Shown here in pieces: positions 3,071-31,773 of a stretch of DNA of 34,080 nucleotides. A program made the position numbers and the translations under genes. The stretch comes from a virus. The stretch is taken from positions 1 to 34,080 of the IMG/VR virus record IMGVR_UViG_3300034109_000282. One strand, 5' to 3'. How positions within the stretch are numbered: position 1 is the first letter of the stretch; each line of letters starts with the position of its first letter. A model generated the notes under the pieces. It did not search any database. It saw only the letters and a list, made by a program, of their open reading frames with translations, and was not told the origin of the DNA.

Positions 3071-3456
3071 AACGAAGCGTCCTTCGGCCCTATGGCGATG
3101 ATCTCGGCATCCTCAATGTGCTTGGGTTCCTCATGTGTAGGGGCCAGCACTATCCTGATGTCTGTCTTGCCTGACACCTCCGTTGCAGCCTTGTCCGTCT
3201 GTGCTAGGTGTTGTTTGCCCAGCCAGATCAGCATCGTGTTATCACCTGACAGGGCTTTGTCGATCTGTGTCTGTGCCAGCTGGAACCTGACGTCGTTGCG
3301 TTCGTTCTCGATCATGAGGGCATAGTCAGCCTTCAACTCACTCACTGGCACGTCACGGTTCAACAGAACAGAGCACCACCGTGATAGGGCAGTCCACCCC
3401 ATCATGGCACGTGCACGACGTTTCAGTTCGGCCTCTTGTGAAGGTGTTAGGTTCAT
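3067..3456 (-). CDS. terS: Terminase small subunit
   Basis: 129 aa, directly upstream of and overlapping TerL by four bases. It should recognise the packaging site and feed DNA to TerL. The stretch with ALSGDNTMLIWLGKQHLAQ (about residues 69-87) matches a segment commonly seen in small terminases of this type. The N-terminal part is helical, which fits a DNA-binding domain. No good Shine-Dalgarno site is visible before ATG 3456; the 45-base gap upstream instead carries an inverted repeat and a DnaA-box sequence. It is the first gene of the late block. Confidence 0.85.
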   Translation of the reverse strand: MNLTPSQEAELKRRARAMMGWTALSRWCSVLLNRDVPVSELKADYALMIENERNDVRFQLAQTQIDKALSGDNTMLIWLGKQHLAQTDKAATEVSGKTDIRIVLAPTHEEPKHIEDAEIIAIGPKDASL

Positions 3457-4912: not shown

Positions 4913-7053
4913 TAGAACTCCCCTTCCTCATCTACGTTGAATGGCGAATGAGCACCGCTCTTCGTGCCTATAATCACGTTGTAGCCCCTTCGCGTGCCCG
5001 TGGTGGTCTTTTTAGCTATTCGGGGTATGTTGGCCTTGGCTAATGCCCTTCCAAGCCCGTAGATGAACTTATCGTTGATTTGCAGGGAGATCTTCTCTTC
5101 ATCGTAGACACGGTTTGCCAGCTGTGAGGCCACCTCGGATGTAGTCAGGAACGGCACATGAGCCCCTGAGCCCTCGGGTCTGTGCGTTATGTACTTTGCC
5201 ACGAGGTCGTCGTATTGCGTCAACACCTCGAAGTGCTTATTCCAGTCGTTGATCTTGCTGATCTCACGATCATCAAACCAGTAACGTTTTCCCTCACGAT
5301 AGTAGGCCACAGCCTGCGACCACAGACCGTCGATGTCAAACTGCCTTATTGAGGTAATGTCGATGTTGCCCCCTACCGGTATGACAGGGAACCGGCGCGA
5401 TCCCGTTTCGTCGTTGAGAAACGTTCGCCTATTGACAGATCCGGCAAAGGAGCATCTCCTGGCGTACGTCGTCTCATACTTATCGTATGGGGACCGCAGG
5501 CGCATGGTGTCGGACGTGATGATGGCCTTGATAGATTCGTGCTGTTTCTTCGTCATGCTCTCCAGTTCGTCATCTACGACCATGAAAGACCTGGCAATTA
5601 TCAGTTTGACGTCCTTGTCATCGGAGATGCTGCCCTCATGGTAATAGTCTTGGCGAAGCTCAACAGGGCATAGGTGCCGTAGGTAGGTCGTCTTGCCTAT
5701 CCCCTGCCCGCCCTGCAGAATTAGCATGATGTGGTTCGGTTTGTGATCTAAAGCACCAGCCACAGCCCCGATAAGCCACTTCTCGATGATCATTTCGAAT
5801 ATCGCATGCTGTACTTCGGCCGAATTGTGCTTGCCATCGTCGATGTCGGCATCGTGTGGCAGTAGCTGGACGTAATCACGGATGAAATTACGATCGCCTG
5901 CTTTCCACTCGTCCAAACCTTCGAAATACGACTTGATAGGGTCATGCTTAGGTACGAAGTCACTATCGAGCACTTCGTTCATGCGCTCCTTGGTGATTTT
6001 GATTCCTATCTTCCGCATCTTCCGTAACTGTGAGTGCACCCAATAGTCCGTCAGGGCTTCAAATTTGACATCGTTGTCGCCTCTGAGCTCGATTTTGCCA
6101 GTGATCACGTTCTTGCGGAACTCGTAACCACTGGATAGGTACGATTCAACCTTGTCGAGGATCTCGGTAGGGTCTTTGGTCTCGAGTTTGATGATGTCCT
6201 TGGGAACCTCATACCCATGTAGCTTGGCGTAATAGTACAGCGTGGCAGTGGTCACCCGTGTGAGCTTATTCTTGAGAACATCGGCATATGTCAGGCCTCC
6301 AGACATCGGTGACCACTCCTCGAGGAGCTGTGCGGCCATCTTATCGTCCCCCAGGGCGTGTGCGACTGCTGCCACTACTTTCTTCCACTGGATGTGATCC
6401 TGCTGCTTAGGTATGACACGTAGCATGGCCCTGATCTGGTCGACGTTAGGCTTGGTACCACCGAAGGCGTTGAAAGCAATCTCGAGATCCCGTGCCTCCT
6501 CATGGCCGTCTGTCATGTCGGCGATCTGATCCATAGTCAGGATGTTACCCCAGACATGGATCTGTGCGTTCTTAGCACCGAACCAGATGCGTACGGCATC
6601 TCGTGCGTTGGTATCGCCTCCGAAGCGTTCAGCAAGGGCCGTCGTGATGGCCTTGTAGTCTTTGGCGTTGCGTATGGGCTCTTCGGTTATGAACATAACC
6701 CTATAACGTGGGTTCTCTGCAGTATGCGAGGCTGTCGTGTAGGCGAACGAAGCGTACTTGCGGAAATAGGGATCTGCCTCGATGTCGTCGAAGCTATGCT
6801 TGCCATTGTCGACGTCGACACCCACGATCTGTGCAGACTTGAAAGCATCGCCGTTACGCTTGGCAAACCCTGTCTTCTGATCGACGTGAAGGTCAGCACA
6901 GCAGATAGGCCAGCCGTGACCTACGAGGTGGTTGATTATGTCATCGCTGACCATCTCGACAGGTGAGAGCTGGGCGCTTAGTGCCACCCAGTCCTGACGT
7001 GTTGCAGCCTTGTTGACAACGGTTTTGTTTATCGATAGACGTATTACTTGCAC
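4912..7053 (-). CDS. Primase-helicase (primase-like N-terminus, PriCT-like domain, VirE-type helicase)
   Basis: 713 aa replicative enzyme. Residues 1-190 contain VGVDVDNG and a ...SHTAENPRYRVMFI... segment typical of primase/polymerase N-terminal domains in phage and plasmid replication proteins. Around residues 210-255, MLRVIPKQQDHIQWKKVVAAV...LLEEWS fits a PriCT-like domain. The C-terminal half is a virulence-associated E-type superfamily 3-like ATPase: Walker A GGQGIGKTT (about 446-454), Walker B-like FMVVDDE, then ARRCSFAGSVN and TGSRRFPVI. It starts at GTG 7053 with CGGAG nine bases upstream in the shared early leader. It should unwind and prime at the phage origin; the next gene carries the candidate origin. 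Confidence 0.9.
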   Translation of the reverse strand: MQVIRLSINKTVVNKAATRQDWVALSAQLSPVEMVSDDIINHLVGHGWPICCADLHVDQKTGFAKRNGDAFKSAQIVGVDVDNGKHSFDDIEADPYFRKYASFAYTTASHTAENPRYRVMFITEEPIRNAKDYKAITTALAERFGGDTNARDAVRIWFGAKNAQIHVWGNILTMDQIADMTDGHEEARDLEIAFNAFGGTKPNVDQIRAMLRVIPKQQDHIQWKKVVAAVAHALGDDKMAAQLLEEWSPMSGGLTYADVLKNKLTRVTTATLYYYAKLHGYEVPKDIIKLETKDPTEILDKVESYLSSGYEFRKNVITGKIELRGDNDVKFEALTDYWVHSQLRKMRKIGIKITKERMNEVLDSDFVPKHDPIKSYFEGLDEWKAGDRNFIRDYVQLLPHDADIDDGKHNSAEVQHAIFEMIIEKWLIGAVAGALDHKPNHIMLILQGGQGIGKTTYLRHLCPVELRQDYYHEGSISDDKDVKLIIARSFMVVDDELESMTKKQHESIKAIITSDTMRLRSPYDKYETTYARRCSFAGSVNRRTFLNDETGSRRFPVIPVGGNIDITSIRQFDIDGLWSQAVAYYREGKRYWFDDREISKINDWNKHFEVLTQYDDLVAKYITHRPEGSGAHVPFLTTSEVASQLANRVYDEEKISLQINDKFIYGLGRALAKANIPRIAKKTTTGTRRGYNVIIGTKSGAHSPFNVDEEGEF

Positions 7054-12499: not shown

Positions 12500-12554
12500 T
12501 GTGGTCTCCGTGTGCTTGGTGGTTGTGCAGTGTAGGATGCTGCGCCCCGTTATA

Positions 12555-12785
12555 TTAAACCAGTCCGTACTTCTGTGCAAGAACACTAACAGCTACACGT
12601 TCTTTACCAGTTACATAATCAAGCAAATTCTCAGCTTCATCGTGTGTGATTTCATCAAATGCTTCTGCTTTTGTAATACCATAATGTGCAGCAATGTTCT
12701 CAAGTATAGCTTCAAATACACTGCTTTCTAAAGCCCACATAAAAATGCTGTTTTTAACACCTTGGCTTGTTTGGATTGCGTTCAT
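12555..12785 (-). CDS. First early gene, small unknown protein
   Basis: 76 aa, mostly helical and acidic in the middle (FEAILENIAAHYGITKAEAFDEITHDEAENLLDYVTGKE). Two ATGs stand in tandem at 12788 and 12785; the second is six bases from CGGAG, like the other early genes, so I take it. It is the first gene after the promoter at 12824-12852, so it is expected early and strongly. First-in-line early genes often encode host-takeover proteins; nothing in the sequence identifies this one. Confidence 0.7.
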   Translation of the reverse strand: MNAIQTSQGVKNSIFMWALESSVFEAILENIAAHYGITKAEAFDEITHDEAENLLDYVTGKERVAVSVLAQKYGLV

Positions 12786-12852: not shown

Positions 12853-12861
12853 GCAAATAAT

Positions 12862-12886
12862 AAAAAACCCGAAAAAAATTTTCGGG
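12862..12886 (-). terminator. Intrinsic terminator
   Basis: Minus-strand hairpin CCCGAAAA / TTTTCGGG (12879-12886 with 12868-12875, loop of three) followed by six Ts (12862-12867). It closes the small structured RNA and probably also read-through from the late tail genes, insulating the early promoter just beyond. Confidence 0.9.
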
Positions 12887-13072
12887 CTTAAAATTTAGGA
12901 GGGGTGTAGGCGTGTACTGACGCCTCGTTTTTAACTTTCCGATAGTCCTGTACGTTTAATCACCCGGCTCTCGGACTTACCTGCATCTTCTGAAACGATT
13001 GAAAGTACCATTTCAATTACCGGTAAGCTCACCCCTCCATATATGGCCAAAGCCAACAGCGGCTAACTATGT
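12862..13072 (-). ncRNA. Putative small structured RNA
   Basis: The segment has a closing 9-bp stem GGAGGGGTG (13030-13038) / CACCCCTCC (12898-12906). Inside it are a stem pairing 13022-13028 with 12975-12981, a 7-bp hairpin ATTGAAA/TTTCAAT (13011-13017 with 12998-13004), a CCGA/TCGG stem (12971-12974 with 12939-12942) that competes with AGTCC/GGACT, and a 6-bp hairpin AGGCGT/ACGCCT (12920-12925 with 12908-12913). Two of the hairpin loops end in GUAC, which is self-complementary. The terminator follows, and a promoter-like sequence precedes it at 13079-13106, giving a transcript of about 210 nt. No known RNA family recognised. Alternative: a short ORF in this segment (frame open 13060-12934, in-frame ATG at 13013) without a well-spaced ribosome site. 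Confidence 0.55.
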
Positions 13073-13078
13073 GTTTAC

Positions 13079-13106
13079 AATATAATGCTTTTCTCACAAC
13101 AGACAA
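13079..13106 (-). promoter_or_regulatory. Possible promoter of the structured RNA
   Basis: Minus-strand TTGTCT (13101-13106), 16-base spacer, TATATT (13079-13084); transcription would start near 13072. TTGTCT is also one arm of a possible hairpin (pairs with 13120-13125), so the match could be coincidental. Confidence 0.4.
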
Positions 13107-13819: not shown

Positions 13820-14629
13820 TTAAGGCTGGGCGCCCTTGTAAAAGACGTACCCGTTGCCGGATGTGGCTGTGTTGCCCGTTGTGTTCAGTTCGCAGTTCTC
13901 ACGATGGCCTGTAATGTAGGCATAGATGGACGACGGGAACAGAACACCTCCCTCTTCCGAGGGCCCGCCTGTTCTTGCTATCATTTTGACTTCGAGCTTG
14001 TCACCAGCACGGAGTGGGATGTGTGCCCCACCCATCAGCCTAGCGTCACGGATGTGTGGCCCGTCTCCCATGTTGTGATAGTCGACCATATCAATGATAC
14101 GAAACATCACACCGTTTACGAAATAGGCAAGACGTGCTTCGTCAATCTGTGACGTGTTCGAATACCTGATCTGTACGTACGTATGCACCCACCAGACGCC
14201 TTTGTTCTGATCGGTTGGTCGGAATGACCAGGTGTCGTCATAGTCTAGTGATTCGTTTTGAATGCCCTGCGTCCGCAGGAACTCATTGTTAAACGGAACA
14301 GGTGTGTACACGTCCGTCATAAACGACCAGTTGCCGTTTAGATCCCATTGGAAAGACTGCTTGTAATCACCCACCCAATGCTTCGACCTGTGCTCGCTGT
14401 TGGCCGTAGCCTTCATGATCTTATTGGTTTCTGTAAACAGAAAAGTCTTGCTGACCATATTGTTCACAGTGATCCTGTAGTTCAGGTCAATGTAGTATTG
14501 GTAGTTGTAGATGTCACCATCAGGTGCTTCGCCAGCGTATGCCTGACCAAAGGCACCCATTCGTCTACGCTCAAAAGCAAGGGAGGCGGGTGCTATCTTC
14601 CTATTGTTTACAGGGTCGTTTATAGGCAT
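13820..14629 (-). CDS. Minor tail or tail-tip protein
   Basis: 269 aa. Beta-rich and aromatic (IYNYQYYIDLNYRITV, GVWWVHTYVQIRYSNTS), resembling a jelly-roll or carbohydrate-binding fold. It starts TAATG-overlapped with the upstream tail gene with a perfect GGAGG before it. Position after the large tail-hub-like gene suggests a distal tail component that contacts the host. No family named. Confidence 0.65.
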   Translation of the reverse strand: MPINDPVNNRKIAPASLAFERRRMGAFGQAYAGEAPDGDIYNYQYYIDLNYRITVNNMVSKTFLFTETNKIMKATANSEHRSKHWVGDYKQSFQWDLNGNWSFMTDVYTPVPFNNEFLRTQGIQNESLDYDDTWSFRPTDQNKGVWWVHTYVQIRYSNTSQIDEARLAYFVNGVMFRIIDMVDYHNMGDGPHIRDARLMGGAHIPLRAGDKLEVKMIARTGGPSEEGGVLFPSSIYAYITGHRENCELNTTGNTATSGNGYVFYKGAQP

Positions 14630-30423: not shown

Positions 30424-31773
30424 TTATGAGTTAATAGTTACGAAACCAACAACAGGGCCTGTTGTACGTGATGCTGCAGTAGCGTTGTAGTTGCCCATTT
30501 CGTGTACCTTGATGTCGAGGTACTGAGTAGCCTTAACATAGATTGTGTCCGTGTCGAAGCCCTTGCTTGCATCTTGCTTGATCGATGTTGCCATGCGATC
30601 GCCAAGAGTTGCAGCCTGTGTAAGGTTACCGAAGTAAGCAAACACCTGGCTGTTTGCGTCTGCTGATGGCATCACATCAACGAACTCGACAGGATAGCCG
30701 AAGAGGCGCTGACCAAATGAGCCAGCAAGTTCTGCAGCTGTTGATCCGCCTTGTGCGTATGCGAGGCGCTCTGCTGTTTCGCCGAAGGCTACCTTGTTGA
30801 AGTACCACTTGGCACCCGTGAGTGCGTATGTTGGAACCTTACGCATACCAGCAATCAGGTTGCCCATTGTAACCTCAGCAAAGGTGTTGCCAGCACATAC
30901 CTGTGCTGAACCGAGGTATCCCTTGTGCGTGTCGTTCGTCCATGTTCCGCCGCCATCCTCGAGAACCTTGCGGAGCTTGCCAGCAAGACCGAGAACACCG
31001 CCGTATGTTGAAGTCCCGTCACCCAAGAAACCAGCTTCGTCTTCCTTCTTTGCGAACTGGCGTGCAACCGATTCAGCAAAGCGAAGGCCGAGGTTCTGTG
31101 TGCTGTTCATTACGAGTTCTTCAGAGAGAACTGCAAGGGCATACATTTTCTTTGCGTTCAACGTCACTGCATCAAATGACATGTCAGATGATGACAATGT
31201 ACCTGTCTCTGATCCCCAGTATGCCGTCACGTCATCGCCTGTGCGGAAGATGCGGATGGATTCGGAGCCCATAGGTTCAACACGTGTGTTGCGACGGAAT
31301 GATCCGTATGTGTCCTTCAGGTTAACGATAAGGCTTGATGTCTCCGTAGGAACGAAGATACCGCCTGTGGCGTCGTTGCCTTGTGTGTGTGTCTTATAAT
31401 CAAGGCCAGTAACTTCTGTGTACTTCTGGCGTGCTGTCTCGTTAGAAAGACCACCAACAAACAAGCCTGTTACGTAAGCCTTGTACTCAGCATCTGGCAT
31501 GTTAGCCTTTGCTGATGATTCGCCGACCTTGATGTCGTTTGTCTTAGGGAGCTTGTTCACTGCTGTCTTCACTTCTGTCTGGCGTTGTGCGTTCTTGGCC
31601 TTGATAGCTTCGAACGACTTTACTTCGTTAGCCTGCTCATTGAGCGCGTCGATTTCAGCGTTCAATGTCTGTGCAGACTTTACTTCGTCCATCGTTGGCT
31701 CTGTCTTAGCAAGGAGCGTTTCGAGCTCTGCAGACTTGGCGCTGATGGCGTCGTTGATCTGTTGCAAATTCAT
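30424..31773 (-). CDS. Major capsid protein, HK97 fold
   Basis: 449 aa. Residues 1-100 are a Glu/Lys/Ala-rich coiled coil (NLQQINDAISAKSAELETLLAKTEPTMDEVKSAQTLNAEIDALNEQANEVK), the scaffolding delta domain removed by the protease. From about 115 the HK97-type shell domain follows, with KDTYGSFRRNTRVEPMGSESIRIFR (N-arm and E-loop area), KMYALAVLSEELVMNS, FLGDGTSTYGGVLGL and GYPVEFVDVMP, all typical. ATG 31773 has AGAGGA upstream and overlaps the protease stop (ATGA). Confidence 0.95.
   Translation of the reverse strand: MNLQQINDAISAKSAELETLLAKTEPTMDEVKSAQTLNAEIDALNEQANEVKSFEAIKAKNAQRQTEVKTAVNKLPKTNDIKVGESSAKANMPDAEYKAYVTGLFVGGLSNETARQKYTEVTGLDYKTHTQGNDATGGIFVPTETSSLIVNLKDTYGSFRRNTRVEPMGSESIRIFRTGDDVTAYWGSETGTLSSSDMSFDAVTLNAKKMYALAVLSEELVMNSTQNLGLRFAESVARQFAKKEDEAGFLGDGTSTYGGVLGLAGKLRKVLEDGGGTWTNDTHKGYLGSAQVCAGNTFAEVTMGNLIAGMRKVPTYALTGAKWYFNKVAFGETAERLAYAQGGSTAAELAGSFGQRLFGYPVEFVDVMPSADANSQVFAYFGNLTQAATLGDRMATSIKQDASKGFDTDTIYVKATQYLDIKVHEMGNYNATAASRTTGPVVGFVTINS

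Follow-up and report, generated by a model that had tools for sequence, protein, structure and literature searches.

The minus strand of the window, which is the whole stretch of 34,080 nt that was analyzed (IMG/VR virus record IMGVR_UViG_3300034109_000282, positions 1 to 34,080), holds a separate RNA unit at 12862-13106, in which a promoter-like site is followed by a structured RNA of about 210 nt and an intrinsic terminator. We rate this RNA as a new, previously undescribed family, whereby newness refers to the RNA and not to a proven mechanism. Its members occur in phages of very different hosts and frequently near tRNAs, and the RNA is probably a trans-acting, non-coding phage RNA that works as a folded object, with its conserved junction as the working site.

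Organization of the RNA unit

The sigma70-like promoter (13079-13106) is composed of TTGTCT (13106-13101), a 16-nt spacer, and TATATT (13084-13079); with a chance expectation of 0.8 per shuffle, this match is not above chance by itself. The -10 box is found within the same sequence context in L007, a relative with another small RNA in this slot. The predicted transcript covers 12862-13072 (approximately 210 nt) when its start is inferred from the -10 box and its end from the terminator, which forms 11 bp with a loop of 3 and a U-run at 12865-12889.

All elements of the core lie on the minus strand. The closing stem P2 is a 9-bp helix between the 5' strand GGAGGGGUG (13030-13038) and the 3' strand CACCCCUCC (12898-12906), and the conserved UA (12908-12907) stands just before the latter. 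The following strand, AGCUUACC (13022-13029), may pair with the 'mid' strand GGUAAG (12976-12981), the 3' side of P3, or alternatively with the 'end' strand CGGAAAGUU (12933-12941) to give P2b. The P4 hairpin (12998-13017) has 7 bp (13017-13011/13004-12998) and the hexaloop UGGUAC (13010-13005). A variable hairpin or pseudoknot (GUCC..GGAC, CCG..CGG) is predicted for 12939-12976, as read from the sequence with few close homologues. The unpaired junction strand AAAAACGA (12925-12932), with the family consensus UAAAACGA or AAGAACGA, is near-invariant in alignments A1-A3 and leads to hairpin hp2 (GGCGU-CAGUAC-ACGCC, 12909-12924), which has a 6-bp stem (12925-12920/12913-12908) and a hexaloop (12919-12914) that kisses the P4 loop.

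The 245-nt stretch reached a folding z of -3.5 and the 142-nt core a z of -4.9, and in either case none of 200 shuffles was as stable. This fold, together with the homology of the core to a wide family, bears out the initial annotation of a stand-alone structured RNA on the minus strand, for which stems, hexaloops, promoter boxes, and terminator were all located where it had placed them. The position between late and early modules that it emphasized applies to the phage of the window only; in other genomes, the RNA is part of a tRNA array or precedes lysis or terminase genes.

Covariation of the closing stem and the kissing loops

The members share a common core of P2, GAG/GAA/AG, a domain X, UAAAACGA, hairpin hp2, UA, and P2'. 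Across 37 sequences, P2 is 99.6% paired and covaries in seven of seven pairs. Taken together, P2 and hp2 show 125 double-change cells versus 31 in shuffles, and 98.6% of their cells are paired in the 37 rows, a value that drops to 28-54% once the structure is slid by 1-3 columns. Because the 37-row alignment drew on copies already found with P2, independent evidence for this stem comes from a swap test, in which 52% of 69 non-redundant sequences had a P2 of at least 8 contiguous bp versus 6.4% (maximum 14.7%) with swapped 3' strands.

The class nearest to the window has a domain X that starts with P3 and the hairpin P4, whose GUANN is paired with the hp2 loop CNNUAC. Of the loop positions, the third is paired in 15 of 15 members and the second in 12 of 15, and each of these two kissing positions shows several alternative pair types. 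The permutation p for the kissing covariation was 2e-5 with hand-chosen sites and 2.4e-4 when every GUA site was allowed. Within the window, the kiss joins GUACU (13008-13004) with AGUAC (12918-12914). The contact between the two hexaloops that had been suspected from a single sequence is confirmed by covariation of the variable loop positions. As both loops hold the palindrome GUAC, an intermolecular kiss is also possible. Stems without covariation among relatives would have spoken against a structured RNA; instead, the closing stem, P3, and the kiss all covary. The comparison thus shows a predicted architecture in which P2 closes the RNA around the arm P3-P4 and hp2, and the kiss between the loops locks a three-way junction. 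The most conserved part of the RNA is formed by the unpaired junction strands (AG or GAR; UAAAACGA; UA). Three members (L082, L086, and L163) carry CCUGAG...UAUGG, which is similar to a motif of group I introns, the 11-nt tetraloop receptor.

The same relatives speak to the coding potential of the region. The initial annotation had cautioned that a 42-codon frame with an ATG at 13013 crosses the RNA; an open frame with an in-frame ATG is indeed present, but it spans 13062-12931, comprises 43 codons, and has its ATG at 13011-13009. A short protein-coding gene whose mRNA folds by accident would be compatible with this open frame and its ATG. However, the ATG lacks a Shine-Dalgarno sequence, stops break the equivalent frame in most relatives rather than leaving it conserved at the protein level, and conservation tracks the base pairs, which leaves a protein-coding gene with a negligible probability.

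A 5' strand with two partners

The strand 13029-13022 is complementary to both the middle strand 12981-12976 and the end strand 12941-12933. For both pairings, cognate partners performed better than swapped ones (p = 2.5e-4 for 12981-12976 and p = 5e-5 for 12941-12933), and compensatory changes are seen in both alternatives. The predicted minimum-energy folds contain the first pairing in the window, L013, and L071 and the second in L049 and L086, and in some members the two pairings overlap by no more than a few bases. Since both pairings covary and the predicted folds differ by member, it is plausible but not proven that the RNA exchanges between two conformations. The earlier suggestion of a switch may thus apply to the mutually exclusive pairings of 13029-13022, which are other stems than those on which it had been based. 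For the latter, CCGA/UCGG and AGUCC/GGACU, few sequences were available, and they might just as well belong to one nested hairpin or to an H-type pseudoknot.

Distribution of the family

In a distant blastn search, phages of Escherichia, Arthrobacter, Rhodococcus, and Erwinia turned out to carry the 3' end of the RNA. The common 3' motif AACGAGGCGUCNNUACACGCCUA matches 105 IMG/VR stretches, where well under one would be expected by chance according to our own estimate. A relaxed pattern recovered extra copies that have C-G instead of U-A as their last hairpin pair, and short-query searches returned many further named phages. The named carriers are phages of Escherichia, Arthrobacter, Rhodococcus, Microbacterium, Acinetobacter, Pseudomonas, Erwinia, and Serratia as well as one Bacillus plasmid, and some copies are located on contigs assigned to candidate-phylum bacteria. 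In named phages, the locus nearly always has no annotated feature or merely a hypothetical protein. The CUS-3 region (at least 80% of it) is held by 116 E. coli genomes, and the RNA is unannotated among the matches listed. Each of the five phage records that were scanned whole contains a single copy. On the large-phage contig L128, a second model match at 3211-3311 (29.4 bits) is perhaps a second, diverged copy.

Among the cellular genomes of 84,980 species, 21 stretches match the pattern with its 18 fixed bases, of which approximately seven are expected by chance (own estimate) and five lie in apparent coding sequence. A covariance-model search of 369 genomes gave one match, the seed itself. 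From this rarity it can be concluded that the family is mainly phage-carried, with prophage copies such as those in the CUS-3 region. Close DNA matches to the window were not found among named phages. The major head protein of the window (30424-31773) has only distant named-phage relatives with approximately 25% identity, and the phage lineage of the window thus has no close named relative.

A covariance model was built from 15 homologues with the window left out. This model matches the window full length at 12897-13038 with 71.8 bits (E 3.4e-17), and the window has the family layout of P2, GAR/AG, X, UAAAACGA, hp2 (CNNUAC), UA, and P2'. Most other classes are matched as well, with scores of the distant ones resting mainly on the 3' motif, while the RNA-less syntenic contigs, the T4 rnaC/rnaD region, and the sibling prophage loci L143-L147 gave no match. 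A weak second match at 12523-12638 on the minus strand of the window (16.1 bits, E 0.009) lies within coding sequence and is probably due to chance. Covariance model R1 covers P3 and hp2 only, and the register of P2 differs by one base between subgroups. The scans of the collections used the exact or a lightly relaxed motif, which favors an intact hp2 and misses more diverged members, so that the conservation of hp2 is partly an effect of ascertainment. The inner domains differ greatly between the classes of the family, for which a single common function is assumed here.

Association with tRNAs

For 38 of the 97 non-redundant copies, ARAGORN predicts a tRNA no more than 400 nt away and always on the same strand, compared to an expectation of 12.9 for random positions in the same loci and a maximum of 23 in 10,000 simulations. 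For the copies away from tRNAs, a terminator follows just downstream in 9 of 46 cases versus 14 of 485 random ones.

The RNA is found in four arrangements. It is (i) free-standing, as in the window, or (ii) placed within a tRNA-like frame, as in CUS-3 with the acceptor UGUGGUG/CGCCACA. In arrangement (iii), a complete tRNA is contained in domain X; the tRNA of L099 and L110 ends with ACCA at or just before UAAAACGAGG, and domain X of L161 holds a tRNA-His. In arrangement (iv), the RNA is circularly permuted after a tRNA-like domain that ends in UGC and whose anticodon arm is degenerate (L045, L023, L128-L130, and L137). The latter three arrangements suggest that tRNA parts may be used as scaffold and as processing signals.

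Several tRNA-like elements were observed in the course of this comparison. In L045, L023, L129, L130, L137, L053, and L097, tRNA-like domains stand right before the RNA core, with degenerate or elaborated anticodon arms and a 3' UGC in place of CCA. The Q-holin slot of the E. coli prophages L143, L144, and L147 contains tRNA-like RNAs with the acceptor UGUGGUG/CRCCACA, in which other inserts replace the anticodon arm and none of which is annotated. A real tRNA-Asn and tRNA-Thr occupy the same lambdoid slot in L146.

Gain and loss at the syntenic slot

Ten syntenic IMG/VR contigs were located via the gene upstream of the RNA (13820-14629). Only one of them, L002 (the same contig as L012), possesses the RNA, which is identical to that of the window across approximately 200 nt despite differing flanks. 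Eight of the ten have about 12 nt or less where the RNA of about 200 nt stands, followed by the same terminator. Out of the nine syntenic relatives in which the RNA is missing, these eight have this terminator in common as well as a conserved promoter-like stretch downstream of it; the terminator of L007 differs. From this pattern of presence and absence, the RNA is best described as an accessory cassette that is gained and lost. In L007, the region at approximately 6540-6640 (syntenic with 12860-13100 of the window) contains a different small RNA with the hairpin CCUAAC...GUUAGG, a terminator, and the same -10 box. Since a different small RNA stands here behind the same -10, the slot appears to be a hot spot of small-RNA genes.

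Comparison with known RNAs

Rfam gave no match on the window at the gathering threshold, and permissive scans of the window and 20 other loci returned only tRNAs and terminator-like chance matches. The models of GOLLD and ROOL matched neither the window, where E values of up to 10 were allowed, nor the 20 other loci, in agreement with the early impression that no known family was involved. A description of the RNA was not found in the literature searched, where coverage of subscription papers was partial and a small chance of a prior description is to be considered.

GOLLD and ROOL are borne by phages or prophages and are often located near tRNA islands (PMC12286853; for ROOL also PMC12191101), and GOLLD has a conserved 3' and a variable 5' part, sometimes with a tRNA in the linker (PMC12286853). 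The RNA described here shares this phage-borne occurrence near tRNA islands. However, it is far shorter (115-230 nt), differs in sequence, and has no known nanocage.

The setting also resembles that of T4 species 1 and 2 RNA (rnaC and rnaD), stable RNAs in a phage tRNA cluster. Identity with these was rejected, as the T4 sequence lacks the motif and the rnaC/rnaD region gave no covariance-model match. Similar to tmRNA, for which permuted gene forms exist, a tRNA-like part is joined to a pseudoknotted part and permuted forms occur. Identity with tmRNA was likewise rejected, given no tmRNA match over the elements scanned and no conserved tag frame. Upstream of the element in Escherichia phage Jgk1 (L013, 1048-1173), a permuted-tmRNA match below threshold (34.7 bits; gathering 47) lies in a tRNA cluster. 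HK022 put RNA is comparable in that it, too, is a structured part of a phage transcript and stands between a promoter and a terminator, but the RNA described here is much larger, is found mostly in tRNA or late contexts, and occurs permuted. A simple tRNA intron was discarded as well, because an anticodon arm would not be restored from the flanks (L160/L066 and L014 inspected) and the sibling prophages showed no clean empty site.

Proposed role and alternative explanations

A peptide does not fit, nor does a single-gene riboswitch, given that the frame is broken in relatives and that the genes downstream are diverse. Along with the enrichment of downstream terminators away from tRNAs, these observations favor a trans-acting RNA. 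It would act as a folded object and not as a message or a switch of the next gene, with its tRNA parts serving as scaffold and as handles for RNase P and 3' processing. The conserved junction would bind or act on something common to very different bacteria, and the RNA may change its state when the 5' strand switches from one partner to the other. A universal partner is suggested by the wide host range. Translation or tRNA handling is the leading guess owing to the tRNA context, which is circumstantial, and a partner within the translation or tRNA machinery is a doubtful assignment.

Several copies precede genes in a way that would suit a cis-acting leader, which would bind RNA polymerase in the manner of HK022 put RNA and cause read-through of the terminator into early or late genes. 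The RNA of the window stands directly before a terminator and then early genes, the CUS-3 copy between Q and the holin gene, and those of Teacup, Aeromonas 62AhydR11PP, and a Vibrio phage upstream of lysin A, terminase, and a peptidase M15 gene, respectively; in addition, phage tRNA arrays are long untranslated transcripts. However, such a leader is unlikely considering that the genes downstream vary widely in kind, that RNase P would cleave the tRNA-like domain at the start of permuted copies, and that eight of nine RNA-less syntenic relatives keep the terminator and the promoter-like stretch downstream.

The architecture itself allows for two other explanations. Purine-riboswitch-type aptamers consist of a closing stem and two arms that touch via kissing loops, with conserved junction strands, and the same layout is present here, yet mostly without a regulated gene. 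The RNA could thus be a sponge that withholds a small molecule, e.g., a defence signal or a nucleotide, from the host, but as this leaves the tRNA association unexplained, we assign a low probability to it. A conserved junction with loop-loop docking, the receptor-like element of the three members mentioned above, two alternative partners for one strand, tolerance of circular permutation, and HNH genes close by in several phages would also be expected of a ribozyme, either self-cleaving or an intron-like mobile RNA, that is inserted beside or into tRNA-like genes. This is quite improbable, as free-standing copies offer nothing to splice, Rfam gave no match to group I or group II intron core models or to a ribozyme, and the sibling prophage loci hold other inserts in the same tRNA-like frame with no clean empty site or exon junction.

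Returning to the trans-acting RNA, we tentatively propose, at somewhat less than even confidence, a third class of tRNA-island phage RNAs after GOLLD and ROOL. It would be a compact, switchable three-way junction locked by kissing loops, kept as a trans tool by phages of unrelated hosts, often on a natural tRNA scaffold, and directed at a target common to all bacteria. The occurrence of an unannotated structured RNA in phages of both Gram-negative and Gram-positive bacteria implies a common target or chemistry, and it is testable in CUS-3 and related E. coli prophages, Arthrobacter Gordonviruses, Acinetobacter phage SR, and jumbo phages of Pseudomonas and Serratia. Furthermore, it suggests that tRNA scaffolds and circular permutation are used in nature for carrying functional RNA, and it bears on the old question of the role of non-tRNA stable RNAs within phage tRNA clusters.
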